Of a DNA stretch of 64,000 nt, positions 2,349 through 50,409 are shown piece by piece. Origin of the DNA: Artemia franciscana. Taxonomy: Eukaryota; Arthropoda; Branchiopoda; Anostraca; Artemiidae. Position numbers and translations under genes: made by a program. Location of the stretch: the NCBI RefSeq assembly GCF_032884065.1, contig NC_088883.1, positions 21,095,393 through 21,159,392 on the forward strand. Direction: 5' to 3'. Under the pieces are notes generated by a model. That model saw nothing but the letters and a program-made list of their open reading frames with translations, searched no databases and was not told the DNA's origin. Position 1 is the stretch's first letter; each line of letters opens with the position of its first letter.

Positions 2349-4021
2349 ATTGAGCACAATTATGTAAAACTAAAACCCTCACACTTTGTTACCAAAAGGG
2401 AATTAAGAAGAATTGTATAGCCTATACCAACGAATTGCTAAAATTCTGATAAGTGCATCAAAATGGTTATTGTTCAAATTAGGCTATTTCAGGTTGAACA
2501 CTTGAAATTGCTAGTTTATTGAATTAGTCTATAGGATACCACCAGATGGCTAATAGAAAATAGGCTAACAGCAACTTCTGGAGCAACTGATGTTAGTCGA
2601 CAAGACAACAGCTGCTACAATATCAGACTTACACATACAGGTAGAGGTACAGGTAACTTACCAGAGTTACTGGTAAGTTATTTGTCTGCATACAGGTTTT
2701 ATTAATTTTAAAGGTGTAGAAAGAGTGGTTGAACTCTCAGTGGTTGAAGAGTGGTGAAGTGGTTGAACCTCTTGACAGTAAATCATTAATAAAAGTAATG
2801 TGTCCAATCAGGAAGAGGATTGTTGACGACATAAACTAGTTCTGTATACACCAAGTGGTACTCTTGTTGTACTGTTTACTCCAAAATGGTGGCCCCATAG
2901 TCTTTGAATAAATGATAAATGGCGTTGCAAAATAGAGCATTTACAAGTAATTTGTCCGTCATCTCCTAACAATGGAGTAGTGAGAACGACTGTAGGAGAT
3001 TTAAATAAAAAAAATTCTGAGAAAATTAGATTTACATAAGTTGAAAAGTCTAAAAATCAATAATCCCATTGAATCAGACAGAACATGAAGAGCCTCTGGG
3101 GGCGAACCAAATGCAAATCCAAAGACTATAGATGATCCAACCAATACTCTGACATGTAATTCCTCTTGTAAAAAAATAGAACAGGACGATACCAATTGTA
3201 CCAGACCTCAAGCACCAACCGTACCACCTCGAAACGAAGCAGCTCTAAAGGCACAAATAAAAGTTACCATTGAAACAGGCCAAAATTTGCCCACTAGAGA
3301 CAGCTTTAAAGGCACAATTAAAAGTTACCATTGACACAGGCCAAAATTTGAGATATCGTTAGATGATGTGGTTGAATCCACTCCATCAGAGTTGCTACCA
3401 AGTCTACAAGAATCTTCTGAATTCATAGTTCTTCTTGAATTCTTCTTGTTCTTCTGAATTCATAGAGCCAACACAAGAAACTCTCCAGCCCAACCCAATG
3501 CAGCTCCCTCAGAATCAATTTTCTGAAATGCATTGACCGTCAGCGTCAGTCCAGCCACCGCAATCGTCATGCAGAGAGGCAACACAATCAGCCTTCAACT
3601 CAAAAATGGAAGCCTTATTCATATAACTCTGTTTCTGATTGTAATTACTAGTGCAAGCTTGTTCATTGTAGTAACTGATTATGGAATTAACCAATTTGAA
3701 AAGGTATTTTCAATTGTCATTGTTTATGTAATCTTATTCATGGGAGTAACATGTGAAGGAAGTAACCACTTTGGAATAATTGGAGCTGTGGAAAGTAAAA
3801 TGGGGAGAGCTTGGTTTAAGGAACAGAGAGGGGAAACAAATTATTTGTGAATGATCCGAAAAGCTATTTATTTTTTGTGTACGAAAATGCTAGTTTCAAT
3901 TATATTATTTTAGTAACATTACTGATGACGTTCGCTGTATATGTGGTCGAAATATCTGGACTTTTGTATATTTTTTTTCACTGTCTATTGGATATATATA
4001 TATAAACAACATCTGGAGACT
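2349..4021. other. Intron stretch, mostly unassigned
   Basis: A perfect 11-bp hairpin lies at 2654-2680 (TAACTTACCAG / CTGGTAAGTTA). At 3240-3340 a ~60-bp unit around AAGGCACAA and AAAGTTACCATTGA is repeated twice. The reading frame at 3533-3850 has no family I recognise, and I do not call it a gene. Confidence 0.4.
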
Positions 4022-4361
4022 GTCGAATTCACCGCCGGTCCTCGGCACGGCTACGTGGATGGTGTTTAAGTATTATTCTTATTGTCGCTTGTGTTCTAAC
4101 CAAGGCCGTCGAATTCACCACCGGTCTCGGCACGGCTACGTGCATGGTGTTTAAGTATTATTCTTATTGTCGCTTGTGTTCTAACCAAGGCCGTCGAATT
4201 CACCACCGGTCTCGGCACGGCTACGTGCATGGTGTTTAAGTATTATTCTTATTGTCGCTTGTGTTCTAACCAAGGCCGTCGAATTCACCGCCGGTCCTCG
4301 GCACGGCTACGTGGATGGTGTTTAAGTATTATTCTTATTGTCGCTTGTGTTCTAACCAAGG
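4022..4361 (+). repeat. 85-bp tandem repeat, four near-identical units
   Basis: Units start at 4022, 4108, 4193 and 4278 with GTCGAATTCACC and end CTAACCAAGGC. They differ at only a handful of positions, so the expansion is recent. Each contains GGCACGGCTACGTG. Confidence 0.95.
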
Positions 4362-6353
4362 CTGTTGCCCTAGGGAATCAGTGGGTTGATTTACATCATC
4401 CTTCATTTCTCGCATTTTCAAGTGACCTTCGATATAGTTTTTCCTGTCTCACAATATTTCTTCCAAGATATTTATTAGGTTACAAGATATTCCACAATTG
4501 AAAGGGCGTGTAGGGCGTTCTTCAACAGCTTTATCGTGTCTAAAAAGTGCATTGGGCTAGATGAAGCTGGTTCTAAATCATCTTCAGGTATTTGCGATGG
4601 ATGTGTCACTGCATTGATTTTGCGATATTTAGAGTCGTTGTAGATTTTGCTACCACTTATCTTTTAGCAGTGTATCTCTTTGTTCTTCACTCTCGTTTTT
4701 GAATCATTGACATTATCTTTTTCACAATTATTCTAACTGCGATTTATTTTTCCAATATTTTGACTTTTTTTATATTTAAATTTTTTATTATTTATTAAAT
4801 TATTAAATATTATTATTAAATTATAAAAATTTAATTTATTATAATTAAAAATTAATTAATTAATTTATATAATTTATTAATAATTTTTTAATTTAAAATA
4901 ATTTTAATTTTAAAATAATTACTTTAAAAACAGTTTTTTAATTTAATTAATTTATATATTATTATAAATTATAATATTTAATAAATCACTATTAAATTAT
5001 TATTAAATATTTATTATATTTTCAGATTTTACGATCTTAGCCAAGTCTGCTTGAATGTCTTAGCTGTTTTCCATGCTCTCATTCATATAAACCCAATTTA
5101 CAGTAACTTAAAATTAAAGGATTCAGATAACATTTTTCTTCAGTTTAAATTAAGATCACCTGACCAGACTTTTAATGAAAGTTAGGTCAATAGACAAGCT
5201 AAGTCAATCACTAAGCAGTGGAGTCTTGCCCAATGCAATTGATGAATAATCTGTCATTTATTCTGGCTTGATTTTTTGGTTTGTTTGATTCAGTCTTTTT
5301 TTCAGCTCAGTTAGAGTTAATTCCAAAGGTTAGTTTTCTTCTTTTTTTTTATGAACACTGTAAGACAGCTGGCGCGGAATTCCCTAACGATATATCTACC
5401 TCTATCATTTTCGATTCTTTTTTCCACTGGCTGACATTACCCTTATTTTTCTTGGCTATTTGGTTTTATAATTTGTTTTCTTGTTTGTAATATGTCAATC
5501 TGGCTTGTATCCCTTTCTGTCTTTAACAATTCACAGAACTAATGTAATTTATTTGACCTAATATTTCGCCATTTTAAAATTGTAGCTACCTGTGCTATAA
5601 TAATATACTTTATCTTTCTGATAACAAGAGACCAAAGTCAGAACTTTTAAGCCGGGAAACGCAACTGTTCACGAAACAAAACTATTCAGTCCTTTTTCTG
5701 CCAGCCTCTTTGTGCTTTTGTGCTCTGAAAATTGCAAGGCGTTGTAAAATATGTCAGTAAAATATGTTAAAAAAAAACCGGTAAAATGCGTAAAATACCA
5801 CATTTTACCGTGACCAATTTTACCAGTTACAACACTACCATTAGGTTAAAAGTGCTTCAGGGACATTTGATGTAATTGTTGTGTGACATGAGGCTCGTCG
5901 TTACTTGGCAAGTCCGTATTTAATTTAATCCCCATTTTTTTTACCAAGCTTGAACCACCTTCCCCCTCCCGGAAATTGTGTCCGGATCATAAAAAAACAA
6001 CAAAATTGCAGTCAATGTTTTTAAGTTTTTTTTTTGCAACTGCCTCCCTTCGAAAAAAGTCCTGGATACGTTACTGTACAATGACAAAGACAGCAATGCT
6101 TCTAGTGTATTTTGTAACTAGATATATGGAAGGTAGAGGGGGGGGGGGATTTGAATGTTACCCAGGATTGGTCTGAGGATCTTTCTCAGAGCCATGATGG
6201 AAAAAACTTTCTGGAAACACTTGTGAACTGGATATCTAAGTTTAAGTTTCTTGTGACAGCATACTTTTGGCATAATTCTCTGCCCTTTCCTCTCCTTCCT
6301 CCCAAAAAAGTTTTTCAAAACAATTGATCTGTTTTGCTGTTTTTTCTTTGCAG
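4362..6353. repeat. Diverged dispersed repeat and AT-only tract in intron
   Basis: 4361-4675 is a diverged relative of 40,092-40,410 in the same orientation (shared TATTTCTTCCRAGA, GTCTAAAAAGT and ATCATCTTCAGG). 4770-5015 is almost pure A/T. 5040-5300 shares ACCCAATTT, CTTCAGTTTAAA and a closing TTTTTTCAGC pattern with 12,800-13,080, suggesting another old dispersed family. No coding sequence recognised. Confidence 0.5.
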
Positions 6354-8219: not shown

Positions 8220-8841
8220 CTATGGTCTTCCAAAGTATTTATTGGTAAATATATAATAACTCACTGCAACACAAAGCCGCCTGAGGCCAACACAGCTACA
8301 CACGCTCCTCCTCCAACCTAATCTGTTCAAGGACTCCCTCTTTACTCCCCCCCAGGAAGTTCCCATTTCCTTTAAATCTTTATTTATGACATCCTCCCAA
8401 CCAAGACAAGGACAACCTGCTTTCCGTATAGCCCCATGCGGTTGGTCAAAAAGGACAATCTTTGGCAATCTGTCATCCTTCATCCGCAGAATGTGGCCTA
8501 GCCATCTCAACCTTTCTTTCATTATAGCACTAGAAAGCAGGATTGAATCACATTTTTCGTACAACCTACTATCTGAAATACGGTCAGTCAGCCGGGTACC
8601 CAGAACAATCCGTAGGCAATTTCTCTGGAATACATCTAGTAAATTTTCATCTGCTTTTCGGAGCGCCCATGCTTCAGAGCCATATTTGACCACTGTCATC
8701 ACTGTAGCTTCCAATATTCTAATCTTGGTTTGCAGACTTATCTTTCTATTCTCCCAAACTTTTTTTTAACTGTGAAAAAACACCCTGAGCCTTAGCTATT
8801 CTACTTTTAACATCTTCACTGCTCCCACCGTCTTTACTGAT
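8220..8841 (-). pseudogene. LINE reverse-transcriptase C-terminal part
   Basis: Reads VKYGSEAWALRK, then FQRNCLRIVLGTRLTDRISD and ERLRWLGHILRMKDDRLPK. This is the typical region after the fingers/palm in RTE/BovB- and Jockey-like non-LTR elements. Upstream, 8841-8765 reads ISKDGGSSEDVKSRIAKAQG before a one-base frameshift in an A-run near 8765. It continues the LINE at 10,486-11,613, from which it is separated by an inserted element. Confidence 0.85.
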
Positions 8842-10485
8842 AATTAAATATAAAAAAAACGAGTTTTTAAAAAATGAAAGTAAGGAGCGACATTAAAACT
8901 TAAAACGAACAGAAATTACTCCGTATATGAAAGGGGCTGTTCCCTCTTCAACACCCCATTCTTTACGCTAAAGTTTGACTCTTTCTCTCAACTCTACTTT
9001 TTAAAACAGTAAAAACTTTAGCGTAAAGATCTGGGCATTGAAGAAGGAACAGTCCCTTTCATATACGGGTTAGTTTCTGTTCGTTATAAGTTTTAATGTC
9101 GCTCCTTACTTTCAGTTAAAAAAACTTGTTTTTTTTTTTATTTAATTTCTGAACGTTTTTTAGTTAATCCTTGTTTTGATTTCGGTTCTCTGCAGATGAA
9201 TAACTAAAGTGAAATTTGCATATTTATTTATTTGGCTAAATGGCTTTCCCATAGTTTTGATCGAATGATTATGAGAAAAAAGTAAGGGGGAAGAGGCCCA
9301 GTTGCCCTCCAGTTTTTGGGGTACTTAAAAAGGCAACTAGAACTTTTAGTTTTTTACGAACATTTTCATTAGTAAAAGATATATGTAACTTACGTAACAA
9401 ACTTCTATATTCGTATGTTTTTATTGCGTATATGAGAGGGTTCACCCACTCGTCAATTCCTCGCTCTTTACACTAAAGCTTAAATTTAATCCCCTGAATC
9501 AGAAAGGCCGTAGAATAAATAGTTGAAATTACTAAAAATACTTTAGTGTAAAGAGTGAGGTATTAGCAGGAGGTGAACCCCTTATATGTGGAATATTTTC
9601 TGTTCGTTTTTAGTTTTAATGCTACTCCTTACTTTCAGTTGAAAAAACTTTTTCATTTTTTTTTTTAAATAATGCTAGAAAATGCTGCGCCCCCTTCATA
9701 GAAATGTTCTTCCCCATGATAAATTCCTCCATGGAAAGTTTACCCCATATAACACGCTCTTCTCAACTCCTCCTCCCAACCAAAAAATCCCCCTGAAAAC
9801 GTCTCCACGCTTCCCAATAACCATTACTATATGCAAACACTGGTCAAAGCTTATAACTTGTAGCCCCCCCTCCCACGGGGACTGTGGGGGAGTAAGTCGT
9901 CCCCAAAGACATAGTTGTAAGGTTTTTCGACTATGCTGAATGAAATGGCAATCTCAGAATTTTCATCCGACGACTTTTGGAAAAACCTGAGCGTGGGAGG
10001 GGGCTTAGGTGCCCTCCAATGTTTTGGTCACTTAAAAAGGGCACTAGAAGTTTTCATTTCCGTTCGAATGAGCCCTCTCGCAAAATTTTAGGACCACTGG
10101 GTCGATACGATCACCCCTGAAAAAAAAACACGCATCCGTGATTTGTCTTCTTGCAAAAAATACAAAATTCCACATTTCTGTAGATAGGAGCTTGGAACTT
10201 GTACAGTAGGGTTCTCTGATACGCCGAATCTGATTGTGTGATTTTCGTTAAGATTCTATGACTTTTAGGGGCTGTTTCCCCCTATTTTGGAAAATAGGGC
10301 AAATTTTCTCAGGCTCGTAACTTTTGATGGGTAAAATTAAACTTGATGAAACTTATATATTTAAAATCAGCATTAAAATGCGATTCTTTTGATGTAACTA
10401 TTTGTATCAAAATTTCGTTTTTTAGAGTTTTGATTACTATTGAGCCGGGTCACTCCTTACTACAGTTCGTTACCACGAACTGTTT
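8842..10485 (-). mobile_element. Hairpin-ended element X inserted in a LINE
   Basis: Removing this 1,644-bp block restores the LINE reading YIGSI|ISKDGG exactly. The boundaries are therefore known: host ACTGAT|TATACTACC, a T|T site with no target duplication. The right end carries a perfect hairpin CAGTTCGT-TACC-ACGAACTG (10463-10482) followed by TTT. It contains two long-inverted-repeat modules (8876-9113 and about 9429-9592) and no transposase. The T|T insertion and subterminal hairpin resemble Helentron-associated (HINE) elements, which is an inference. Related truncated copies lie near 41,590-42,755 and 62,280-63,490 in the opposite orientation. Confidence 0.7.
8876..9113. repeat. Long inverted repeat, ~101-bp arms, ~36-nt loop
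   Basis: The left arm begins GAAAGTAAGGAGCGACATTA and ends CTTTACGCTAAAGTTT at 8976. The right arm is its near-perfect complement from AAACTTTAGCGTAAAG (9013) to the final CTTTC at 9113. It lies in the SMU1 intron, so it would be transcribed in SMU1 pre-mRNA. Confidence 0.9.
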
Positions 10486-11602
10486 TATACTACCAATGTA
10501 AGTGAAGCTGCCAACCTGATCAATCTTTTCGTTACCCAACGTCACCTTTTCATCTTCACTTATTCCTAGCCTTAGTGACTTAGTCTTCTTCACATTAATT
10601 TTCAAGCCTATTGTAGCACCCTGAACTCTCAAAACCTCTAAAAATTCATTCATTTTGCTCACACTTTCATCTAATATACTTAAATCATCAGCATAATCTA
10701 AGTCCAGGAAGGTTTTTCCTTTCCATTTGATTCCGTGGTCCCCAATTGCCTTTCCTGTGCTCCTTAAGACGAAGTCCATAAAAATGATCCACATAAAGGG
10801 GGATAGAACACAACCCTGCTAAACTCCTGATTTAATACGAAACCAGTTGCTAACCTCATTTCCTACCTTAACCGCAGCAGCATTATTCTCGTACATAGCA
10901 CAAATCACTTCAATGTATTTTTCTAATATACCATATAACGATAAGACCTTTGTTAACGCTGTTCTATCAACAGAATCGAAAGCTTGCTCATAATCGATAA
11001 AACTGAGGACCAAAGGTGTTTGACAACGAAGGGACTTCTCAATTATTAACCTAAGAGTGAAAACTTGGTCGACACATCGTCTACCTTTTCTAAAACCGCA
11101 CTGTTCTTCCCTTAAAACTGTGTCTACAGCATCTCTCTGTCTAAAAAGTATCATATTACTCAGTAATTTGCTACCTACAGAGACCAGACTAATACTTCCA
11201 TAATTACGACACTCAATCTTGTCACCTATCTTGTACAGTGGTTTAATTAAGGTTTTCCTAAAATTATTAGGTACTTCCCCTTTTTCAAAAATCATGTTCT
11301 TAATCTTCAGTAGCTTATTTCTAACCTCAGAGCCGCCATATTTAAGAAACTCATTTATCACTCTATCAGTACCTGGAGCCTTATTATTGTTTAATCCTTT
11401 TAGTACTGTCGCTAATTCTTCCTCGCTAAACAAATCTTCCTTCACATCCAAGGTATCACAAATTTTTTCATTTTCATCTATATCTTTTCTTGCAACTGTA
11501 TCTCGGTTTAGCAGATTCTCAAAATGTTCCACCCATCTTTCTTTAACCTCTTTAAGATGGTTAGTTTGGCTAAAGCTAACCAAAAGATGGTTAGTTTGGT
11601 CG

Positions 11603-11613
<11 letters not shown>
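10450..11613 (-). pseudogene. LINE reverse transcriptase with one in-frame stop
   Basis: The frame holds RT blocks in order: NNNKAPGTDRVINEFLKYGG, then a palm block (FIDYEQAFDSVDR), then RIKSGV, a TAG stop at 10819-10821, QGCVLSPFMW and the catalytic LDYADDLSIL. The stop stands where related elements have Arg or Gln (GV-x-QGC), so one transition broke it. The element is 5'-truncated against a (TA)n tract at 11,614 and is cut at 10,486 by element X, beyond which it continues at 8841. No endonuclease domain is present. It is a dead non-LTR retrotransposon of unassigned clade. Confidence 0.85.

Positions 11614-11683
<70 letters not shown>
11610..11683. repeat. (TA)n microsatellite
   Basis: An uninterrupted CACACA-(TA)n tract at the 5' truncation point of the LINE. 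Just before it, AGATGGTTAGTTTGG is duplicated. Confidence 0.95.
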
Positions 11684-11955
11684 CTACAATTCTCTGTGAT
11701 AAGTGATATATGAGTTATAGGGGTTATAGTTGAAGAAATAAGACTGGGAATTATTTATCAGATTGGAAAAAAAATGGATTTTTTGAAAAAAATTATTATC
11801 AATATTTGTAAACCAAAATGTTTAATCTGTTTTATTTGTATCTAAAAAGTAAGTTTTGCTCCTTTGCATTGGTACTTTTCAAAATGTTTTTTTTTCTATG
11901 TTTTATTTTTATCAAGTGGGAAACAAAACAATCACAACGTAATCTTTGCACCTTT

Positions 11956-19505: not shown

Positions 19506-20768
19506 GTATTAACATATATTCTTGTCATTTGTCACTAACATGTAATTCCCTTTTTCATTTTATATTTAATATATATTAACATTTATTTTTAATTAAATGC
19601 ATAATTACAAATATTAAAGCATGAAACTTTGCAAGTTTCAATATAGAATGGATCCATCTCTTCTGCTTTCTTGCAAAAAGTTGTTTAAAACCAGAGTCTT
19701 TAGAAATTTCTTCTAATCTCCTCCCTCACTTCTAATCAATAAGATTCCTGGACTTCAGTCTGCCAATTGGCCTTTTTAATCATTTTCTTGGTGTGATTTG
19801 GTTCCAATACGGGCCATGTCCTAGTTTTTCACTTGCAGGAATAGTAGTAAGCAATGTCTTTGGTACCAAATTTTTCTTCTCGAGCCTCGAAGAAATGAAA
19901 AAAGTTTGTTGAAAAATCCTTTGACTTTCCTCCCTGTTAATTTTTTTTGTTATATTAAATGTTTAAAATTTCTTAAGTACAGATTTTGATCGTAAGACGC
20001 AAATGATTTATTTGCGGTAATAATAAATTATGATTAATTAATAATTATTATTAATAAATAGTTAATAATTAATAAAAAAAATTTAATTGGTGGGTATCCA
20101 TAACTTCCAACCAATCAGTAACCTTCAGATCCGAAAATAGTCGTATGACGCAATGCAATGGGCACATGAAACTATAGGAAATATGCAATTAAGATTTGCA
20201 ATCATCCCTTTGATAACTGAGGACTTTGTTATACTAACATGAGATCGATTTAATATAAAATCGCGCTTGTGTTTTGTCAATAATGCTCTCCATAATCTCC
20301 TAACAAATTTGGTTGTCCTTATTCATCTACCCCCTGATTGACTCCCTCATTCTGCCTCCACTAAATTCTCCATTTATACCACAATGAAATTTTCCATATA
20401 AAGAGAACGAAGGTTTTCTTCCTCCCTCAATATGATTGAAATTTCAATAAGTAAATCCACTCCCCATCCTTTCTTTCTTTCACACCCTGTTGGGTAAAAT
20501 ATTCTACTAATTTCTTTAAAATTGAACTGTTTTTTATTTGACAGCTTAATGGGATCGACGCTTTGTTTTTAATTAGTGAAAAATCAATTAAAATTATTTC
20601 TTGTCGTTTTTTTTTCTGTGGACTTAGGTCCACGCAAAGTGAATTTAGCTCTCTTAGAGCGTATGAGGATAGTCTTTTTGACATAATTATTATCTTAAAT
20701 AGCTTTTAAGAAGCAAATCTGGCCAAATCCATTTTTGCTTCTTTTTTTTATCCTGCTGTCATAAGAAT

Positions 20769-21165
20769 TTGATGCAGGAACTAGAGTCGGTCCAAAAACG
20801 GGCAACCAGGATCATCCTAGGTAATAGAAATATTTCCTGTAACAACGCCCTAGCAACCCTTGAACTCCAAATTCTTGAACTTCCTTTGGGTGACCTTGTT
20901 CTGAGGTTTGGCAAAATGCTGCTGTCTAGCCCTGCTCACCGTGACATTTTACTCCCAGAAACCCTGATAGTCAGCCGTACGAGACAGAAAGTAAAACTTT
21001 TGCCTGTGTGTGCTCGGACAAACCGCTACCAGAACTCTTTCGTCCCTTTTTTACGTCAATAGAAAATAGTGCATAATAACATGTTTTGTATTTCAACGTC
21101 AAATGAGTCATTTGAGCTACAATTTTTGTTTTAAATAAACCTTTCTCTCTCTCTCTTTATTACAA
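20769..21165 (+). pseudogene. LINE C-terminal fragment and 3' tail
   Basis: Reads MQELESVQKRATRIILGNRN, then LETLIVSRTRQ-like sequence and RTNRYQNSFVPFLRQ before a stop. This is the C-terminal end of a CR1/L2-type LINE protein. The following AATAAA and (CT)n tract is probably the element's own 3' end. The paralogue is 45,890-46,290. Confidence 0.75.
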
Positions 21166-21587
21166 CCCTAAACTTTGTAAGTGTTAATACAAAAAGTATA
21201 AGTGCAGGAAAATTTATTACCAAAAAAAGTTGCCCTTCATGCGTGGCCGTATCCAGGATTATTTTTCAGGGGGTGTTTTACGCAAGGATTTTTCGGGGGG
21301 GGGGTCTACACAAAATAAAACTCAAGAATCGCATAATCCTATTGGAATATAGTTGAAAACTTGCCTCGTGAATTTATTATTTTACTTCATATCAGTTTTT
21401 GCTTTGGAATTTGGTTTAGCTTTTGAAGTAATTTTTCTTTTAACTACCAACTAGTACATCAATTGTATTTTTATTGGGTTTTCCTTCGATTAACTAGTAC
21501 CAAGGCTACCTCTTTTTTGACGAAGCCAAGTGGAATTTTAATACCATTAACTCAATGGTATAATCTACTATAGTTTGTAGTGCAACC

Positions 21588-21680
21588 CAGTGGTTCTAAT
21601 ACTTTTCGGGTCAACCAGCCTTCCCCCTCCCCCACTTTGTTCGACCCCAGAAGTGAGCCCCCCTAATAAATTAATTGTAA
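21588..21680. repeat. Possible hAT-like terminus
   Basis: CCAGTGGTTCTAATACTTTT and the C-rich sequence after it resemble hAT termini of the CAGTGGTTCTCAA type. The partner end was not found. Present in both duplication copies (46,732 in copy 2). Confidence 0.35.
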
Positions 21681-22656
21681 TAGTCATGTTTAGAGTACCA
21701 AAAAGCTAAAAAAGAAAACAAACATAACCTAATTTTGATATTTACTTTACAAATGTCTTTTAAACTAAAATATTTTTTTTTTTCCAGACAGTTTGGTGAA
21801 GTGAGGACAGATATTTGATAAAGCTTTTCTCAATTTTTTGCTGACATCTAGTCTTCCACGGTATTTAGGCTTCATTGATGCTAGGGCCGAAAATCCTTGG
21901 TGAACAAGTTACAAGTTGTATTGTAACTTGGGCCACACTGTATTTTTGGGAGCCCAATCCAAAAGGATTAGGGTTTGACGGTTGAATAGCCCTCCGGAGG
22001 GGCGCTCCGGATGTTTCTTATGGGATGTTTAAAACTGTTTTTAGGGTTGCTAAAACTGCGACCCTATAGTATCGTGTTTTTTCAGTTTTACGAGGAATTC
22101 AGTATTTTATATTTAATGTTTAGTGTTATTAATGTATTAACGACAAAATGATAGCTTAAGAAGCCTTCAGTTTTATTGGCTGTTATGTTTCTGTTTTCAA
22201 ATGCAAATTTCTTTCGGCCAAAAACTTAAAAAAATGTTCATATTATTCAACTCTTACAAATTATAAGCTTCAGCCTAATTTATGTGTTTTATGAATCCTG
22301 AACAAAAGAACAGATAGATAAATTAAAGATCAGTTTCGCCATTCAATTAGTTATTAAAAATTAGTTAAAAGAATAAAATTTATTCTAAAAGATATTGTGG
22401 AAAAAAACTTTGTTCCTTGATAACTTACGGTATTAAAAACCTTTATAAAGAAAAATTTTCATTGTGGCTTATCTTCATTTACTCTACTCTCTATTTCTAT
22501 CTGTCTATATATATAAAAATAAGTTGTCTGTCTGTGGATCAGGTGACGTCATGTTTCTGTGTTGACTGACGTCATGAAATTAGTTGTCGTCATTTTTGCT
22601 TTGACGGTGAAGTCATTTAAGATATTTAAGACATATGTTCACGTAGAAATCTATTA

Positions 22657-23430
22657 ATGTTTAAGTTTACAATGACTGATGAACTTACCATGGCAAAAGC
22701 CGATGAAGATGCTCAAAGAGTCTATGCCAAAAAACTTGCTGCTGATAGAGAAAGTCAGAAAAGAAAGCGTGCCGAGGAATCAAAAGAACAGCAAGGAAAC
22801 AGGCTTGAGGCTGATAGAGAAAGAAAGAACAGAAAGCGTGCCGAGGAATCAAAAGAACAGCAAGGAAACAGGCTTGAGGCTGATAGAGAAAGAAAGAACA
22901 GAAAGCGTGCCGAGGAATCAAAAGAACAGCAAGGAAACAGGCTTGAGGCTGATAGAGAAAAAAAGAACAGAAAGCGTGCCGAGGAACTACCAGAGCAACG
23001 CGGAAGCAGACTTGCTGCTAAAAGAGAAAGTGAAAAAAGAAGGCGTGCCGAGGAATTACAAGAACAGCAAGAAATCAAGCTTGCTGCTGATAGAGAAAGT
23101 AAGAAAAGAAAGCGTGCCGAGGAATCACAAGAACAGCAAGAAATCAGGCTTGCTGCTGATAGAGAAAGTAAGAAAAGAAAGCGTGCCGAGGAATCAGAGC
23201 AACCTGAAAGTTATCGCCTGGCATTCAGGTACAACCCAGTCGATGATTATAGCTTGAGTAGATGTGTTCAAATCGGGACAATGTCTAAAATTTGTCCCTA
23301 TTGCAAGGCCTTGAAATTCAATGGTGAAACAATGGGAATGTGTTGCGCCTCAGGAAAAGTTAAACTTCCTCTATTGGCTGCACCACCAGAGCCATTGAAG
23401 ACGAATGAATGCTTGCCTGAAAAATTCTAA
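22657..23430 (+). pseudogene. Helitron Rep N-terminal region with RAEES repeats
   Basis: The first ~170 residues are tandem ~23-residue repeats rich in Lys/Arg/Glu (DRESKKRKRAEES variants). CVQIGTMSKICPYCKALKFN and GMCCASGKVKLPLLAAPPEP follow, the Cys-containing block that precedes the nuclease domain in Helitron Rep/Hel proteins. The frame ends soon after, at the deletion joint (TNECLPEKF), so the nuclease is lost. The repeats extend over 22,760-23,200 in the DNA. Confidence 0.85.
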
Positions 23431-24286
23431 TTTATGGGCACACGTAAAAATATTAAAATTAACTACAAATATGCGTGTCCGATTGCAAAACGATGACTCT
23501 GGTCAAACATTTTCAGATCAATTGCTGACAATTGGAAACGGAAAGCTCCCAGTAGACTCAATTTCAGGACGTATACAACTACCTGCTGATTTCTGTAATT
23601 TAGTGACGTCCAAAAATGAATTGATTGAAAAAGTATTTCCGAATATTCTAAAAAATTATAAAAATAATAAATGGCTAAGTGAAAGAGCGATTCTCGCACC
23701 CAAAAATATAGACGTCCACGAGATCAACAATATTGTTTTGACCAAGATTCGAGACCAGGCAGTCCTTTACAAGTCAGTCGACACAGTTTTGGAACCAAAT
23801 GAAGCGGTTAATTATCCATCTGAATTTTTAAATTCCATAGATCTTTCAGGGTTTCCACCACACGTGCTACAACTAAAAATAGGCGTACCAATAATACTTT
23901 TAAGAAATATAAACCCACCAAAGCTTTGCAATGGCACTCGACTTGCCGTAAAAAAAACAATGGAAAACCTAATAGAGGCCACAATCTTGACAGGGCCTTT
24001 TGAGGGTGAGGCTGTTCTTATTCCTCGCATTCCCATGATTCCAACGGATCTGCCTTTTCAATTTAAAAGATTGCAATTCCCAATTCGATTAGCATTTGCA
24101 ATCACCATTAACAAAGCTCAAGGTCAATCATTAGAAAAATGTGGTATAGATCTTAATACTGATTGTTTTTCCCATGGACAATTGTACGTTGCATGTTCGA
24201 GGGTCGGTAAACCTGACAATCTATTTATATGCAGCGACAATTGGACAGCGAAGAATGTTGTATATTCGCAAGTTTTACGCAGTTAA
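23405..24286 (+). pseudogene. Helitron helicase C-terminus, copy A
   Basis: Reads LWAHVKILKLTTNMRVRLQN, GVPIILLRNINPPKLCNGTR, then motif V/VI-like AFAITINKAQGQSLEKC and GQLYVACSRVGKPDNLFICS. This matches the last third of a PIF1-type helicase as fused in Helitron transposases. The Walker A and B motifs are missing. Its start overlaps the preceding frame out of phase at the joint GAATGCTTGCCT. Confidence 0.88.
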
Positions 24287-24480
24287 TTTGTATTGTATCT
24301 ATCTATCTATCTATCTATATAAAAACGAGTTGTGTGTATGCATGTTTGTTTGTTTGTAAAAAGAGCGTTTGCATATGATGTCATTATTAGTACATACGGC
24401 TTTGTATATGCAGAGACAATGGGAAAGCCAAGAATGTTGTATATTCGCAATTTTTACGTAGTTTAACTCCTGCAGACGAA

Positions 24481-25321
24481 ATGAATGCTTGCCTAAAAAA
24501 TTCTAATTTATGGGCACACGTAAAAATATTAAAATTAACTACAAATATGCGTGTCCGATTGCAAAACGATGACTCTGGTCAAACAGTAGACTCAATTTCA
24601 GGACGTTTACAACTACCTGCTGATTTCTGTAATTTAGTGACGTCCAAAAATGAATTGATTGAAAAAGTATTTCCGAATATTCTAAAAAATTATAAAAATT
24701 ATAAATGGCTAAGTAAAAGAGCGATTCTCGCACCCAAAAATATAGACGTCCACGAAATCAACAATATTGTTTTGACCAAGATTCGAGACCAGGCAGTCCT
24801 TTACAAGTCAGTCGACACAGTTTTGGAACCAAATGAAGCGGTTAATTATCCATCTGAATTTTTAAATTCCGTAGATCCTTCAGGGTTTCCACCACACGTG
24901 CTACAACTAAAAATAGGCGTACCAATAATACTTTTAAGAAATATCAACCCACCAAAGCTTTGCAATGGCACGCGACTTGCCGTAAAAAAAAACAATGGAA
25001 AACCTAATAGAGGCCACAATCTTGACAGGGCCTTATGAGGGTGAGGCTGTTCTTATTCCTCGCATTCCCATGATTCCAACGGATCTGCTTTTTCAATTTA
25101 AAAGATTGCAATTCCCAATTCGATTAGTATTTGCAATCACCATTAACAAAGCTCAAGGTCAATCATTAGAAAAATGTGGTATAGATCTTAATACTGATTG
25201 TTTTTCCCATGGACAATTGTACGTTGCATGTTCGAGGGTCGGTAAACCTGACAATGTATTTATATGCAGCGACAATTGGACAGCGAAGAATGTTGTATAT
25301 TCGCAAGTTTTACGCAGTTAA
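24481..25321 (+). pseudogene. Helitron helicase C-terminus, copy B
   Basis: A tandem near-copy of 23,405-24,286 beginning at the same joint. It has a ~42-bp deletion (lacking the IGNGKLP region) and a one-base insertion in an A-run near 24,985 that splits it into frames 24,481-25,038 and 24,995-25,321. The helicase end and the following (TCTA)n tract are otherwise nearly identical to copy A, so the duplication is recent. Confidence 0.88.
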
Positions 25322-25957
25322 TTTGTATTGTATCTATCTATCTATCTATCTATATAAAAACGAGTTGTGTGGATGCATGTTTGTTTGTTTGTAAAAAGAG
25401 CGTTTGCATATGACGTCATTATTAGTACATACGGCTTTGTATATGCACAGACAATGGGAAAGCCAAGAATGTTGTTTATTCGCAATTTTTACGTAGTTTG
25501 AAACACATATATAAATCTATCTATATTCACAGGTGGGACACAGGGACACAACTACAATGGCGCATAACTAATATGGCGCGTAACGACTTACGCGCGCGGG
25601 GGGGCTTGGGGGGGCGCGAAGCGACCCACCAACTAGGTGTTGGGGTGGCGCGAAGCGCCACCCCAACAGCTAGTATATTTTTATTTTAATTCTTTTCTTG
25701 GATTTTTATTTATTATCTATTTTTATTTAGTTCTTTTAAGATGCTTCGCAAGACATAAGCTTTGAAAGGTGTAACTTACTTACAAGCTATAAAATTTTTT
25801 TTACTGAGTTCGTTTTCCTTGATATTACACAGTGTGATAAAATTAATAAATGAAATGAACTAATTAATTCCTGTTTTTCTTTCCTATAAAGTTTAAGTTA
25901 TCCTATTATGTTTTTTTTTGTTCTTGTAATTAATGTGTGATCTATGTTCTTTCACAG

Positions 25958-26193
25958 GTGAAAGTTTGGAAAATTACCACGGGTCAGTGTTTAAGAAGAT
26001 TTGAGAAAGCCCATTCGAAAGGTGTCACCAGTATTCATTTTGGAAAGGACAATTCGCAAATATTGACGTCTTCATTTGACATGACTATTCGTATTCATGG
26101 ACTTAAATCTGGCAAAACACTGAAGGAGTTTCGAGGGCACTCGTCATTTGTTAATGAAGCAATTTTTTCATCAGATAACCATTACATTATCAG
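25958..26193 (+). CDS. SMU1: SMU1 exon (WD40 blades 2-4)
   Basis: Encodes [20 protein letters not shown], then [20 protein letters not shown], and ends NHYII plus two bases of a Ser codon. The acceptor is TTTCACAG and the donor GTACAT. Length is 236 bases. A second copy with the same length and splice signals lies at 47883-48118. This one is the functional copy by order, and its residues agree better with the SMU1 consensus as I recall it. Confidence 0.96.
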
Positions 26194-26369
26194 GTACATC
26201 GTTGTTTTTCGAACAGATGATATTAAATTGATAATAATAACACAAATTAATAAATTGTTAACGATAAATAAAAAGTAAACAGATAATTAATTGAAAATAA
26301 AATTTAAAAAAATTAAATTTTAAATAACATGATTATGCTTTATAAAATAAATTAGATTAAATAGAATAA

Positions 26370-26995
26370 CACATACATTTTGCATGTGGACCAATAGTCC
26401 ACATAGCGCAGTTGACTAGTCGGGAGCGCTGTGAGGAGTTCATATAACCATTACATTATCAAGTACATCGTTTTTTTTCCCACAAATGATATTAAATTGG
26501 TAATAATAACACAAATTAATAAATAGTTAATGATAAATAAAAAGTAAATAAATAATTAATTAAAAATAAAATTTAAAAAAGCCTAATAAGCTTTATAAAA
26601 TAAATTAGATTAAATAGAATAACATATTTTGCATATTGACCAATAGTCTGCGTAGCGTAGGTGCCTATTCTGAGCCTTAGGCCGGGAGTGCTGTGTGAAG
26701 TTTGGAGCAGATCATCCGACTTTTCACACTTTCCGTAAAAACCTGCTGAGGTTAGACCCTTAATTCTTTTTAGGAATAAGCTGAAATTGGGGTGCTAGAA
26801 AAAAAAAAACATGACCAAACCAAAGTGTTGCTCTTGCAACACAATTAGATTAAATGGAATAAAACATACATTTCGCAGGTTGATCAGTAGTCCACGTAGC
26901 GCAGGTGACTATTCTAAGCCTTAGGCCGGGAGTGCTGTGCGGGGTTTTGGAGCAGATAGTCCGACACTACCCATGTTGTCCCCCAAGATTTCTCC
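26370..26995. repeat. ~245-bp tandem array, about three units
   Basis: Units are marked by TGACCAATAGTCCRCGTAGCG at ~26,389, 26,638 and 26,879. Each holds TTAGGCCGGGAGTGCTGTG and, in full units, TTTCCGTAAAAACC. The same array has about eight units in the paralogous block. Confidence 0.85.
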
Positions 26996-27079
26996 TAATA
27001 CTTATTTTGTAGCTAGGTCAACTCAGGCTGAGCAACACCAGAGGATAATAGCAACTGTCTTAATGAGTAACACCGCTAA

Positions 27080-27175
27080 TCTGTGTTTCAAATCACCTAA
27101 CCAGCGGTACCGGGATTTGAACTCCTGCCTTAATGTACACAGCAGATCAAGTTTGGCCTGCCATCCACTTGTAAA
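27080..27175 (-). repeat. Possible tRNA-derived SINE block
   Basis: The minus strand reads GGATGGCAGGCCAAAC then ~45 bases later GGAGTTCAAATCCCGG. The latter is a good box B / T-arm motif; the former is a weak box A. Paralogue at 50,410-50,515. It does not fold into a full tRNA as far as I can see. Confidence 0.45.
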
Positions 27176-27477
27176 ATAAATTGAGTATGATGAAATAATA
27201 ACTAATATATATAAAAAAGAATAAGCTAATAAATGACATAGATTGATAGCTTAAACTGTCCTAGAAACCATACCATAGGATAATATGTGGTGTTCATAAT
27301 TAAAGTGGATTCAGTCAGTTTCTTAGCATATCCATGAAACCTATGGTAGCACAGTAGGTTGATTCTCTGCTTGGCTGGAGTTTATTCCCTCTGCCACAAG
27401 GTTGGGCAACAGGGTTGCTACCTGTCCCTTAAAAGAAGACACAGCAACTGAAACGTCGAGTAGCCCGTCGACACCTT

Positions 27478-28200
27478 GTGTGGTGCCATCAAAGGCTCTG
27501 GAGGACCTTCATCTTTTATCCTTTTATACTATTTGATGACACAGAAGGATCTATTGGTGGCACATTATATTCTATTTATGGCACATAAGAGATTGACGGT
27601 AACCTTGCGACACCTTATGTGCCATCTTGGGCCATGGAGGATCTTCATCTTTTATCGTATTATACTATTTGATGACACAGTAGAATCCTATTGGTGGCAC
27701 ATTATATCCTATTTATGGCACATAAGAGATTGACGGTAGCCCTGCGAAACCTTATGTGCCACCATGGGCCATGGAAGATCTTCATCTTTTAGGATCCCAT
27801 TGGTGGCACATTATATCCTATTTATGGCACATTAGACATTGACAGTAGCCTTCCGACACTTTACGTGCCATCAAGGGCCATGAAGGATCTTTATCCTTTT
27901 ATCCTGTTTGATGACATTGACAGTAGCCTTCCGACACTTTACGTGCCATCAAGGGCCATGGAGGATCTTTCTCCTTTTATCCTATTTGATAGCGCAATAG
28001 AACCCTGTTGATGACATAATAATATATATGGAACATTAACCGTCAACAGTATCCTGTCGACACTCTATGTGCCATCACCGGCTCTGGAGGATCTTCATCC
28101 TTATGATGGTATAACAGTATCCTATTGATCAAACACAAGGAGTTGACAGTATCCTTGCGTCGTCTTATGTGCTATAAATGGCTTTGGTGGGTCTGTACCC
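27478..28200. repeat. Degenerate ~75-135-bp tandem array
   Basis: About seven units containing GGCCATGGAGGATCTTCATC, CACATTATATCCTATTTATGG and TTGACAGTAGCCTTGCGACA. Paralogue at 50,790-51,340 with fewer units. The flanking 28,434-30,160 is T-rich and AT-rich with nothing coding. Confidence 0.85.
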
Positions 28201-30361
28201 TTAATTTATCTTGTTCATGTAATTCGGTTGCAGTTTCATAACATGCAATGTCTCTGCCCTTGATTAGACACCACTGCTTGTTCATTTACAACGAAATGGA
28301 AGTTAGAAAATATGGCGTCATTTTCTAGTAGGACGATAAAAATTAGCTGAAGAAACTTTTTTCACTAATAATAATAAAAATCCAAATATTGTTGCCTTGT
28401 ACATTACGATGTGTAAAAAGTTGAATTATCCCAATGGATGTTACTAAGAAGCGTCTTTTTAGTTTTTTTTTTTTATTTTCCCTTTTTCATTTTCCATTTC
28501 ATTTTTTTATTTGTTGTTTTTTCCCTTTTCTTGTTTTCCTTTTTTGTTTGGTCTATTTTAGGTTACATCGTTTTTTTATTTTCTTCTTTTTTCTCGTTGA
28601 TAAAGGCTTCCATACGTGAAGCTGAAATATTCAGAATTTTAGTATATTGGAGAAAAAAGGTTTTTGTTTTTTTCTATTGCCTAGTTAGAAAATTCTGCTA
28701 GTTTTCTATTTTTTCGTTTTTCTTCACTGTGAATAATTTTCCTCTCTAATCACCTACTACCGTACTGATGAAAACCCATAGCCCTTGTAGCCAGCCTTAC
28801 AGTAAGTGGGTATCAGTTCGTATTATTCCACATAATTCTATTCGTTTTACTATTATTTCCTATTTGTTTTCTAGCATTATGTTTCTAGTATTATATGAGG
28901 TCTTACTTCGTTTCAAATTTTGTATTTAAAAATTTTAATAATTCCTGTCTCCTCTCATTTTCATATCCCATCCCATATTAAATTTTGACAATACTATTGA
29001 CCCATTGTTGCTATTTTTAATTTTGCTTATTAATTATTCTTTATTATTAATTATAGTTTATTGTAATAATATTTATTACTTCTTTTTATTGTATAGAATT
29101 GTTTTATGGTATTTAATCGTACTATTACTATATTACTTAATATTTTATATTCTAATTTTATTATTTTATAGTGTTAATTATTTCCTTATTTCTTTATTAT
29201 TAACATTTCTTATTTTTTAGTTCGTTCATAATTTTAGTTATAATTATTGATAATTACGTTACTTGTATGCAATCAATGATTTTTGTAATTCATATTGTTA
29301 AAATTTTAATTTTACAGTGAATCGTTTTACAAGTGAGATAAAATTGTGTTTCACACATTTTTAAGTTTTTGGCGTGAATAGCCAAACAGAAAGTACATAA
29401 AAAAAGAAATATGACTCATTTTTAAACTGAAAATTAGTCAAAAATATTAAAATTTAAAATTTTCGTACGTTTTTTGTAGAATTGTAAAGTTTTCTGTTTA
29501 GAAAATAAACGTTTGGAAATTTTGATTCAACTTGTACTCTCTTTTCAAGTCCCATAATTCTGTCAGGTTGTCATTATTGTGTCAGCGTTTTTCTAATTTG
29601 TTTTCATGAAATTCAAATCGTCATCGTAAACATGGGTGGACAGAGGTCCAGGTTTGGGAAGAAGCAGATGATTTTTACGGAATGTGTTTCTATTGTCAAG
29701 CAGTATGGCGCCTTCTTTTATGCCCGTGCTTTTTTCTTGCCGTGGGCAACTTCTAGACAGCCCAATTTAAAGAAGGAGGTGGTGTTTGCTCGCTAGATCT
29801 TTTGTTAAGTCTATATGTCTTCACTGCCCTTTTAAGAGACCCGTTTCATTAGTCCAAGAGGGATACGCGACCCTTTGTTGACAGGTAATTTATTAGCTTT
29901 TTTTTTTAGAAATTCAAGAAAATTCCAGAGAGAAGGGTCAGAAGTAAAAAAACAAACACACAAATCGTTTTTTTTTTTTTTATATATAATTTTCTTTTAG
30001 GGATCTATTAGGAACATTAAAGGCACTTAATCCTTAATCTGTCTATTTCTGTCATATTATATTTGATCTGTCTTAGTCGCATAGAATGATATAGGGGAGA
30101 GACGATGATGTAGAACGGCCCTTTCCTTCTCAAAAACAGATATTATCTTTTCTGTTGTGTTTTTATCGGCCTTTCTGTACAAAACTGACTTAAGCCACGA
30201 CACTTCTTACCCTTGTGATTTTAATTTATATATTTTCTTATTGATAAACTTGTCAAATCATAAAATGTAGTCTGAAGATCTGAAACCCTCTGCCTATTTC
30301 ATATACCATTAGTTTTTATCCGTAGTCGCATAGAATTGTAGCAAAACACTTTTTCTTCTAG

Positions 30362-35139: not shown

Positions 35140-37747
35140 GGGCGATAATGGATATCGATATTGCGGACCACATATCGATATTAAATATCAAAACGTAAAA
35201 ATCGAAAACGATATTCGGGTGTTTTCAGCTTTTTCTGGTGTCTACCGGTGAACGTCCAGTAGAAGAGATCCAACGTAGAAAATTGTGTCACAAATGGTCG
35301 AGAAGAAGAAGAATTTCTTCAATATATTGACTCATACATGCTGATACACAGCATACTTAGCTGTAGCCATTGACATAGCCATTTCTCAAGCCGAAACTAC
35401 GTTTACTGAGGATGCAATCTCAAATGTTGCTGAGGACCTCCAAAGGCTTGGCTAGATAAAATGCCTTCTAGGCTTGGAGGGCCTTTTCACATCGCACTCG
35501 TCAATATTACCACATAATTGGATCCACGTTTCAAAAAGTTGCATATTCCTCATTTGGTTTCGGTCTTGTTGGAATGAGTGTTAACAGATGCAAATGCCGT
35601 TACAGTTCCTTCGATTCAGCCACTTCAGAATCAAGCCAGTTTGTGGGGGGTGAAATTTCACTTGAGAATGCAAGGCCTTCACCATATTTTGACCTCTGGC
35701 ACCTTCTTGTAGCTCAATGCAAGGCCTTCAACAATGCCACTTCACCATCAATATCATCGGTCATACTTTTCCAGATTTTCAGTAGGGAGTCTTAGTTACC
35801 AGAGAAACTGATCTAATCAAGTCGTCAAAGTCTCGTAATATTAGTCTCAAAAAGACCTATGTGAAGTAGTCATAAACTTGATGTCCCTGTCTGTCGCCAG
35901 TGAGCCTTTTGAGAGTGGATTCAAAGTCTGATCAGTTAATCAAACAGATTGTGGTACTAAGTAAGGAGCGACTTGATCCAATAGAATTTTCCACAAGATA
36001 TACTTTCTATTGGAAAAATGGGAGGGGTGAATTTACAGGAAAAATTTTCCACAGAGGGGGGATTTCCGACATGGTTTGAAAAATGATTAGAAATTAAAAG
36101 AAAAGCAAGTCTTTCAAATAAAAGCAGGCTAAAAAGAATGTATTAGGTGGAATTATCCGCAAGAAATTTTTTTGGGGTGATTTTCAGCGGGGATAGAATT
36201 TTGTGGGGGGAAGGGAGACATTACGCGGGAAAAACTTTTCAAGGAGGTATTTTTGTAGGGCTATAGGTGGCGGGGGAAGAGGGATATTGCACGGGAGGAA
36301 CTTTTCAAGGAGGAATTTTCATGGAGATGGGATTTTCTATGGAGGGAAGAGGCAGATTTGCCAGCATTATTTGAAAATTGAAAAAAAAAACATTTTTCAG
36401 TTTAAATTAAAGAGCAACATTGAAACTTAAAACGAAAAGAAATTATTATATATATATGAGGGGGGATGCCCTGTAGTCAAAACCTCTATCTTTGCGCTAA
36501 ATTTCGACTGTTTGTCCGAATTATTCAAGAATTGTATTTGTTTTTGGGAAGAACAGACATTTATCGGGGAGATTTTCTATGGAAGGGTAGTCTCCGGATG
36601 GCAATTTATAAATGGAAACTATAGGCTAGGGAATTTATCAGAAAATTATTTGACTAACTATCTCTTTGCCAATCCAATCTCGCCTGCGGAGATATTCCGG
36701 AGAAATCATCCGGGGAAAATTTTCAAAGAGGTACAAATTATCTGAGGGATTTTTTATGGGGGGATTTTCTGCAGGAGAAATTTTCCATGAGGAGTTCTCC
36801 AGGGGAGAATCTTCCCATTTGACATTGAGAGGGGAAAGTTTCTAGGAGAAAAAATCCACAGATATTCGTCTTTCTTTCAAATTAAAGGTGGCTAAAAGAA
36901 TTTTCCAGGTGGTATTGTCCTCAAAACATTTTTTGGGGAAATTTTCAGCAGGTATGGAATTTTCTTGGGGAAGGAGGATCTTACGTGGGGGAAACTTTAA
37001 AAAGAGTAATTTTCGTAGGGATGTTATTTTCTATAGAGGAAGAGGCGGATTTTCTGGCATTATTTGAAGAACGATCAGAAATTGGAAAAGACAACAATTT
37101 TTTTCAAGTAAGAATGAGAAGCAATATTAAAACTTAGAACGGATAGAAATTTCCCCCTATATGAAGGGGGACGTCCGTTCCTCAATACCTCACTCTTTAC
37201 GCTAATTTTTTACTTTTGCCCCAATTTTTTAAGAATGACTCCTGAAAGACAAGGGCCGTTTATTTAGAGCAAAAACTTTTTTTAAGTACAAAAGACTTTG
37301 GGATGAATAGCGAAGTATTGAGGAGGGGTTACCCCCTCATATACAGAATAATTTTGTTTTCTTAAGTTTTAATTTTGCTCCCTTCTTTCCCTTGTTATTT
37401 AGTCACTGGAAGGCAGAACCAATTTTCAGGGGAAAATATTGACATGTTACTGATTTTCAATAACCAATAATAGCCAGTAGTTTTATTTTTCCTTATCCCG
37501 AGCCGGAATAGTTCCAAATCTGGGTTTTTATGACATTGATTCATGAAGCCTAGTCGCAGTTTTTTTCGTATTTTAATATACTTAAAAAAAATTGTGCAAA
37601 ATACTGTTTAATTACAATTTTGGCAATTGAACTTTTGCAAAACCACGAGTAAATCTGAGCAAAAAAGTGATCGGAAATATCGAAATCGATATATCGATTA
37701 TCGAATATCGGAAGTAAAAATATTGATGTATAAGCAAATTATTGCCC
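35140..37747. mobile_element. Degenerate hAT transposon with nested repeats
   Basis: Ends GGGCGATAAT and ATTATTGCCC, flanked by CTAGTGTT (35132) and ATAGTGTT (37748), an 8-bp target duplication with one mismatch. ATCGAT-rich subterminal blocks lie at both ends. Transposase relics on the plus strand are LDPRFKKLHIP at 35,518-35,550 and a decayed C-terminal dimerisation block near 35,885-35,930. 35,955-37,390 is later material containing two long-inverted-repeat-family segments and G-rich repeats. Confidence 0.75.
36415..37390. repeat. Long-inverted-repeat family segments inside hAT
   Basis: AACTTAAAACGAAAAGAAATT at ~36,424, CTTTGCGCTAAA at ~36,490, AACTTAGAACGGATAGAAAT at ~37,132 and CTCACTCTTTACGCTAA at ~37,187 match the 8,876-9,113 module family. 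The right half at 37,310-37,380 is complementary to the left. Between them, many copies of GGGGAAATTTTC/GGAGGATTTTC-type motifs occur. Confidence 0.75.
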
Positions 37748-40091: not shown

Positions 40092-41060
40092 TCAGAGACT
40101 GTTGCCCCAGTGAAGGAAGAGGCATTTAAATCATCCTCCACCACTTGTCCCAGTTTCAGGTAAGCTTTAGCATAGTTGTTTTTGTCTTGCCATATTTCTT
40201 CCGAGAGATTCATTGGGTTACGAGATATCCAAAAATTTAAAGGATAAGGAATGTTTAACAGATTCATCAGGGTCTAAAAAGTATATTTGACCATATGCAT
40301 GTGGTTCAAAATCATCTTCAGGGGGGTTTTTATGGCACTTGGTATTAACCAAGTGACATAGCAATCGCAAATTCTGTCGGAATGTCAGTCCCGGTTTTGC
40401 TACTTTAGGGACTTCCAGGTAAGCTAGGACGATTAAATTTGGTAGGCGGATCAGCGGCCAGACCAGATTAAATTAGAAATAGTCGTTTTCTCGATTTGAC
40501 CATCGGGAGGGGAGTGGGGGGGGCCATTAATTCGGAAAAAATAGAAAAAATGAAGTATTTTTAACTTACGAACGGGTGATGGGATCTTAATGAAATTTAA
40601 TGTTTGGAAGGATATCGTGTCTCAAAGTTGCTATTTTAAATCCCGACCAAATCTCGTGACATTGAGGGGGGAGTTGGGAGGGGGAAACCTAAAATCTTGG
40701 AAAACACTTAGAGTGGAGGGATCGGGATGAAACTTGGTAGGAAAAATAAGCACAAGTCCTAGATAAATGATTGACATACCTGGAACGGATCCACTCTCTT
40801 TGGGGTAGTTGGGAAGGAGGGTTAATTCTGAAACAAACAGGTGATCGAATATCAATGAAATGTGATATTTAGAAGGATATCATGTCTCAAAGCTCTTATT
40901 TTAAATCCCGACCGGATCTGGTGGCATTGGGGGGGGGGGTCTAAAATCATGAAAAATGCTTAGATTTAGGGATCGGGATGAAACTTGGTGGTAAAAACAA
41001 ACAGAAGTCTTAGATACGTGAGTGTTATAATTGGAACGGATCCGCTCTATAGGGTGGTCA
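40092..41060. repeat. Element Y copy (truncated)
   Basis: 40,092-40,325 is shared with 4,361-4,590. At 40,336-40,355 a hairpin CACTTGGT-ATTA-ACCAAGTG starts the part shared, inverted, with 58,400-60,240. About two and a half monomers follow, with GAAGGATATC at ~40,607 and 40,870 and GGGATGAAACTTGG at ~40,727 and 40,974. Confidence 0.8.
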
Positions 41061-48118: not shown

Positions 48119-48284
48119 GTATATCGCTGTTTCTTCGGACAAATGATATTAAATTGATAATAATAACACAAATTAATAGATAGTTAATGATAAATAAAAA
48201 GTGAATAGATAATTAATTGAAAATAAAATTAAAGAAAATAAAATTTAAAATACTCTGATACGCTTTATAAAATAAATTAGAGAC

Positions 48285-48425: not shown

Positions 48426-48439
48426 CAAAATGAATTCGA

Positions 48440-50310: not shown

Positions 50311-50409
50311 GAAGCTACCCATGCTGTCACCCAAGATCTCTCCTAATACATACTTTGAAGCTAGGTCAACTCGGGCTGAGCTTACCCGCTAATACCGCTA
50401 TATGAGCTT

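Follow-up and report, generated by a model that had tools for sequence, protein, structure and literature searches.

A dispersed transposon family of Artemia franciscana with a large 5' palindrome and Helitron2-like ends, probably mobilized by rolling-circle transposition

In this work we ask what kind of element interrupts a LINE at one locus of the Artemia franciscana genome, how it was inserted there, and what the long palindrome that forms one of its ends may signify. The locus lies in a stretch of 64,000 nucleotides (hereafter the window), in which a first-pass annotation had described a hairpin-ended element without transposase, inserted at a T|T step and taken to fit Helentron-type rolling-circle capture. 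Here we present evidence that the element belongs to a dispersed family which is likely to represent a rolling-circle transposon of the Helitron superfamily, non-autonomous and with Helitron2-like ends, and in which expansion of the 5' hairpin and capture of a gene are probable. What sets the family apart is a 5' palindrome of ~300 bp in place of the usual short 5' hairpin. The G+C content of the window (35.1%), together with its LINE- and Helitron-bearing content, agrees with the published figures for A. franciscana (34.7-34.9% G+C, LINEs 12.75%, Helitrons 8.81%; PMC11492255).

The interrupted LINE lies on the minus strand, with its downstream part at 8220-8843 (DUF6451, E 0.0012, below the cut-off for that family) and its reverse transcriptase part at 10488-11754 (PF00078, RVT_1, E 5.6e-10 for 10819-11508). 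Once the element is removed the flanks rejoin in frame (YIGSI/ISKDGG), so the insertion into a LINE is real. The empty site is less clear-cut than the "unambiguous" one first reported, given that two joins, GAT|TAT and GATA|ATAC, are equally in frame and both encode Ile-Ile. Because two uninterrupted paralogues of the LINE (located in L029 and L041; the two are 90% and 87% identical to it, reading AATAATACTACC and AATAATATTACC) carry AATAATA at this position, the host base is an A (host reading GATAATACTACC), the limits of the element shift by two bases, from 8842-10485 to 8844-10487, and the T|T junction falls. Thus refined, the element (element A, plus strand) reads TTAAAT...CTGTTTTA between host GATAA and TACTACC, on the basis of these empty paralogues, of a 5' start common to A and two other copies in the window (B and C), and of the 3' end of the family; a placement at 8843-10486 is equivalent. 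The paralogues are uninterrupted at the join and A|T fits them precisely, in keeping with the original observation that no base was lost or duplicated. The rejoined LINE piece across the site matched no Pfam family, and the single LINE relative found (L005; 30% identity over 138 residues, with three gaps, none of them at the join) scored 68.6 bits with the YIGSI/ISKDGG spacing, compared with 63.2 for one residue fewer and 63.9 for one residue more. L005, the one relative among GTDB contigs (IMG/VR yielded none and PDB weak matches only), is a contig filed under an Acidobacteria assembly that encodes a LINE-like reverse transcriptase and is probably eukaryotic contamination. Complete open reading frames wholly inside element A do not exceed 86 aa, which bears out both the absence of a transposase and the classification as non-autonomous.

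To extend the comparison of empty sites, the joined flanks of 15 full-length loci were compared by Blast with the sequences retrieved for this analysis. Uninterrupted versions were found for three loci (A, L012 and L015) and, among these sequences, for none of the other 12. The empty sequence of L012 reads GCT-A-TATC (one copy, 95 columns, 92%), and that of L015, where the 5' end of the element is one base shorter, reads GAAATTTG and comes from the units of a tandem repeat of ~300 bp. Each of the three sites is accounted for by A|T, neither losing nor gaining a base; as one host A is common to both ends, the element may be set before that A, a shift of one base that is formally the same, and T|T fits none of the three under either placement. 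The proposed T|T insertion, and with it Helentron-type T|T capture, is therefore not borne out. Target-site duplication, which had been named as evidence against the original reading, is absent from all three comparisons, and no matching DDE transposon, named for the same purpose, was encountered in passing.

Both long inverted repeats previously noted within the element are present. The first, LIR1, is a 5' terminal palindrome at 8842-9147, whose arms of 135 nt (8842-8976 and 9013-9147, 36-nt spacer) are 85% complementary, and whose first two bases (8842-8843) belong to the host under the refined boundary; it folds at -167 kcal/mol as RNA (z -25) and at -111 kcal/mol as single-stranded DNA. 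The second, LIR2 (9395-9672; core 9455-9478 / 9541-9564), is weaker (-32.5 kcal/mol as single-stranded DNA), with unequal arms that are more diverged than those of LIR1. Inside LIR1 lies a 5' subterminal inverted repeat, AGTAAGGAGCGAC (8879-8891, plus strand), which pairs at 13/13 positions with its exact partner in the right arm, GTCGCTCCTTACT (9098-9110, plus strand), and a 3' subterminal inverted repeat, GTCACTCCTTACT (10449-10461, plus strand), is found 26 bases from the 3' end. Together AGTAAGGAGCGAC and GTCGCTCCTTACT form a 13-bp inverted repeat that occupies two places, one within the 5' palindrome and one immediately ahead of the 3' hairpin. The 5' and 3' repeats of element A match at 12/13 positions, a level reached by 1 of 400 shuffles, which for this element alone is only moderately unusual; their recurrence across loci is the stronger evidence. 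Since LIR1 is far more stable than the pairing of these two repeats (-111 against -10.5 kcal/mol, as DNA), the published opening of a 5' hairpin cannot work by simple displacement here.

The hairpin reported near one end of the element is confirmed at 10462-10483 (plus strand), with a 9-bp stem (ACAGTTCGT/ACGAACTGT) and a TACC loop, four bases from the 3' end. It folds with a z of -3.7 as DNA (1/200 shuffles fold as well), and shuffling the last 35 bases of element A 5000 times never produced a stem of 9. The window contains 15 places with a stem of 9 or more; what carries weight is therefore the constant location of this hairpin at the end of the element, rather than the existence of the stem. 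A hairpin end, an insertion that duplicates nothing and one fixed host base at the join could also point to a non-autonomous element of a single-strand Y1 transposase (IS200/605-like or Replitron-like), as Y1 and Replitron-like elements are hairpin-ended, make no duplication and lie beside a fixed A. Asymmetric inverted repeats and the capture of foreign DNA (described below) are Helitron traits, however, no enzyme of the Y1 kind was encountered in passing, and we consider a Y1 origin quite improbable.

Elsewhere in the window, two copies share the 5' start ATTAAAT with element A in unrelated flanks. Copy B (41590-42752, minus strand) is 83% identical to A and lacks the 3' part, and copy C (62278-63490, minus strand) lacks the 3' hairpin and has lost most of the right arm of LIR1. 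The sequence that cuts copy B at 41590 (41478-41593) recurs inverted at 19967-20082 and is perhaps another mobile element. A divergent relative, D (35942-37408, minus strand, 5' limit approximate and set by eye), has 3' end motifs in the same order as A and a decayed hairpin; its 3' end alone gives a weak BLAST match to A (E 0.58), and its 3' and 5' alignment scores to A were reached by none of 2000 single-base shuffles. A partial relative at 60604-60866 consists of the LIR module only. Comparison of the LIR1 arms of A and B gave no signal of concerted evolution (3 copy-wise against 4 arm-wise sites), with single changes numbering 17 in the right arms and 6 in the left arms.

The window also contains a canonical Helitron with Pif1 helicase pieces (22500-25673, 5'-TC...CTAG-3', hairpin GTGGCGCGAAGCGCCAC, ends set by eye), which was considered as a partner of the family and rejected as its ends differ. 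Its Pif1 helicase region (23396-25499) is tandemly duplicated inside it, at 94% identity over about 1.07 kb, and the Helitron sits in one copy of a large duplicated region (20393-30011 / 45521-53231, longest pieces 83-90% identical), the other copy of which, near 47597, resembles its A|T empty site. This region holds a fragment of a WD40-repeat gene, which resembles SMU1, and its second copy extends almost as far as an assembly gap (53317-53416). Further repeats comprise arrays of the ~300-bp tandem repeat at 58404-60244 and 40327-41057 (found also at L015, L036 and L044), a long inverted repeat at 1365-1592 / 2121-2348 (228-nt arms, 94% complementary, 528 nt apart), and four tandem copies of an ~85-bp unit at 4017-4365. 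Searches with the element gave no match among phages and plasmids, its exact short motifs were found in neither GTDB contigs nor IMG/VR (perfect matches alone being detectable), and Rfam returned nothing in the window at gathering score. Four IMG/VR contigs that matched the 18-base hairpin core alone were rejected, as all of them carry it in one and the same context, which is unrelated. A literature search joining Helentron with Artemia returned no paper, and searches on Helentron, Helitron2 and HINE and on Helitron palindromes and gene capture revealed no such palindrome family in titles and the beginnings of abstracts.

A search of the species' own genome (1,270,528,402 bases) gave 134 matches from 40 scored of 28,741 first-look candidates, so that the family is dispersed and its copy number large, the figure of 28,741 referring to candidates and not to copies. 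We analyzed the 30 best-scoring loci, a selection biased to long, A-like copies that includes three duplicate pairs (L007/L008, L010/L011 and L009/L013); L009 and L013 at first seemed to have the left flank in common and to differ in the right one, a reading rejected in favor of one duplicated insertion. The 3' end with its hairpin (element position 1644) is reached in 29 of the 30, L024 stopping at 1626, while in the main match several of the remaining 10 scored copies end earlier (1025 to 1623). The 5' start falls at element position 1-5 in 15 loci, at 87-89 in 11, and elsewhere in four (10, 45, 71 and 125). Ends that vary from copy to copy had been cited in advance as an argument against the original reading; this applies in part to the 5' end, which is common to only 15 of the 30 and varies by truncation or replacement with a foreign segment, and not to the constant 3' end.

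The distribution of conserved parts also bears on a fold-back or MITE-like cut-and-paste element, for which the long inverted repeats would be transposase sites. In its favor, the 5' end does consist of LIR1, and LIR modules are met in a number of different settings. Against it, the 3' end, the most constant part of the element, has no such long arm, half of the 30 loci have an altered LIR1, and no duplication accompanies any of the three empty sites. We therefore regard a DDE or MITE-like origin as very unlikely.

In 27 of the 30 best loci the element terminates in CTGTTT followed by GA, giving the end CTGTTTGA; of the exceptions, A has TA, L020 has TGA, and L024 lacks the end. The base that follows CTGTTTGA is T in 18 of these 27 loci (against 32.5%, P 3e-4), A in seven, C in two and G in none, such that the A|T step is not strict, 9/27 loci having A or C at this place. 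Five of the seven loci with A there (L009, L019, L025, L027 and L030) have the flank GAAAG. Among the 15 full-length loci, the 5' repeat AGTAAGGAGCGAC is exact in 11, starting about 27-41 bases in, and in 14 the 3' repeat is recognized immediately ahead of the hairpin, at 24-26 bases from the end; of all 24 loci tested, 20 show it there and 13 have exactly GTCGCTCCTTACT. Both repeats are exact and fully complementary (13/13) in 4/15.

A further, unforeseen finding is a foreign segment, ~690 bp long at most, that 10 of the 30 best loci have at the 5' palindrome or close to it. When nine of the 11 loci starting at 87-89 were extended by ~6 kb upstream (L036-L044), all nine were found to carry the segment upstream, which indicates that loci starting at 87-89 are not all plain truncations. 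The tenth, L031, has its 5' start outside 1-5 and 87-89 and carries the segment inverted; in L019 and L028 the segment was not seen. It is near full length (674-694 aligned columns) in L036, L037, L039, L041, L042, L043 and L044, the copy adjacent to the element is shortened (about 240-550 bp) in L038, L040, L041 and L043, and in L039 it lies ~0.9 kb away from the element. Segments of at least 510 columns (n=11) are 91.7-96.8% identical to one another, without clear sub-structure. Segment-bearing copies have bodies that are 93.2% mutually identical, compared with 91.7% among independent full-length copies, suggesting that this subfamily is at most slightly younger than the other copies.

In three of the nine extended loci (L041, L043 and L044) the segment is present in both orientations. 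In L044, with the element turned to the plus strand, positions 4065-6140 form a single palindrome of 2,076 bp with the foreign segment on both arms. It aligns with its own reverse complement at 93.8% identity across 2,084 columns, and about 17 bases of the family start are missing from its 5' end. The inverted segment pairs of L041 and L043 are 87-90% identical, and in L037 and L042 LIR arms of 92-93% flank one foreign segment. The segment ends in an ATG followed by about 45 codons, which read MNPANIKIGDLFLAKFEGYPLWPIRILEVMTTNTGDCKFALFCYG in L037 and are stopped after 37 residues in L044. Peptides from these two loci match the start of the PWWP domain weakly (E 0.0027 and 0.003; 18.6 and 18.5 bits against a cut-off of 25.6), and peptides assembled by eye from more than one copy likewise stayed below the cut-off (E 0.0014 and 1e-4), so that the gene identity suggested by this match is weak. 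Capture from a host gene appears likely.

Taken together, precise joins without duplication, a fixed hairpin 3' end, asymmetric repeats and foreign DNA argue for rolling-circle transposition with Helitron2-like ends, and the earlier view of a probably rolling-circle element is to this extent upheld. Points against the Helitron2-like part of this reading are the position of the 5' repeat about 27-41 bases in and the small number of loci (4/15) in which both repeats are exact. Under the model that we favor, a RepHel-type enzyme encoded elsewhere would nick at the 5' end (host A | TTAAAT...), peel off one strand and stop at the 3' hairpin (...GTTCGTTACCACGAACTGTTTGA), and the strand would be inserted, with no duplication of the target, at an A|T step or less often at A|A or A|C. 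AGTAAGGAGCGAC and GTCGCTCCTTACT may serve as the end-recognition pair, as described for Helitron2. The usual short 5' hairpin would have become a palindrome of ~300 bp and, in one subfamily, of up to ~2.1 kb with the foreign segment. The inverted duplication would be best explained by snap-back copying, that is, a template switch at the 5' hairpin. A more tentative proposal, which we hold possible if rather doubtful, is that the 5' palindrome acts as a growing capture device, the new strand snapping back at the 5' hairpin in the course of rolling-circle copying, copying itself and fixing flanking or switched-to host DNA as an inverted pair within the end of the element. Such a device would account for LIR1 and for the ~2.1-kb palindrome in L044, as well as for the presence of the segment in both orientations.

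Helitrons are known for capture (PMC4778049), and the experimental case described there involves read-through at the 3' end. The mechanism of gene capture by rolling-circle transposons is still argued, and the many copies with a foreign, gene-like segment inside the 5' palindrome, where it occurs in the two orientations, may provide a sequence record of a different, 5'-end route. On the tentative capture-device proposal, transcription of such copies would yield long double-stranded RNA with the sequence of a host gene, and the end of the transposon would then act as a gene-silencing hairpin as well. Should the parent gene be confirmed, the family could also be a natural source of hairpin RNA directed at that gene.

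The place of the family among known systems was assessed by comparison with published descriptions. Helentron-type capture would make it a HINE, a non-autonomous Helentron inserted at T|T, and with HINE and DINE-1 elements (PMC4067079, PMC7492417) it shares a non-coding body, subterminal inverted repeats, a 3' palindrome, the absence of target duplication and many copies; its 13-bp repeats also fall within the 12-15 bp of HINEs and Helentrons. None of the three empty sites is T|T, however, the repeats lie about 27-41 and 24-26 bases from the ends compared with 2-4 nt (5') and 38-60 bp (3') from the termini in mite HINEs (PMC4067079), and a double LIR body is present here. Because target site and repeat spacing differ, membership fails, in agreement with the initial remark that the layout is not that of a standard HINE, and we judge this alternative unlikely. 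Canonical Helitrons (Helitron1; PMC5148889, PMC4778049) share the 3' hairpin near the end, the capture of foreign DNA and A|T insertion as seen at the three empty sites. Insertion strictly between A and T, the rule for Helitron1, agrees with these three sites, while T follows the 3' end in only 18 of the 27 loci given above. Membership again fails, here because both termini differ (TTAAAT...TTTGA, with no 5'-TC or CTRR-3'); in addition, inverted repeats are present and the hairpin lies four bases from the end rather than about 11. FoHeli1/2 of Fusarium (PMC5148889) resemble the family in their Helitron2-type ends and insertion beside an A/T step (TNAT|T), and differ in their end sequences and short hairpins.

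The closest correspondence in the arrangement of the ends is with Helitron2 (Bao and Jurka 2013, PMC3627910), in which the 3' hairpin is immediately preceded by a 3' ATIR, 20-30 bp from the 3' end, a 5' ATIR is paired in a 5' hairpin, and the 5' end has a T; pairing of the two repeats is proposed to open the 5' hairpin and so to end replication. Likewise, the 3' repeat of our family adjoins the 3' hairpin on its upstream side, at 24-26 bp from the end, the 5' repeat of element A is paired inside its 5' hairpin, no duplication is made, and element A has a 5' T under one of its two equivalent placements. The differences lie in the 5' repeat, which starts about 27-41 bases in, outside 0-4 and outside the 0-2 bp of Helitron2, in the size of the 5' hairpin (~300 bp, and up to 2.1 kb in one copy), and in the target, A|T here and TTTT|T or TTTT|C in Helitron2. 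Judged by its ends, the family falls outside strict Helitron2 membership on the position of the 5' repeat and the target, while appearing to work like Helitron2; Helitron2-like ends at an A|T step further suggest that target site alone may not separate these groups.
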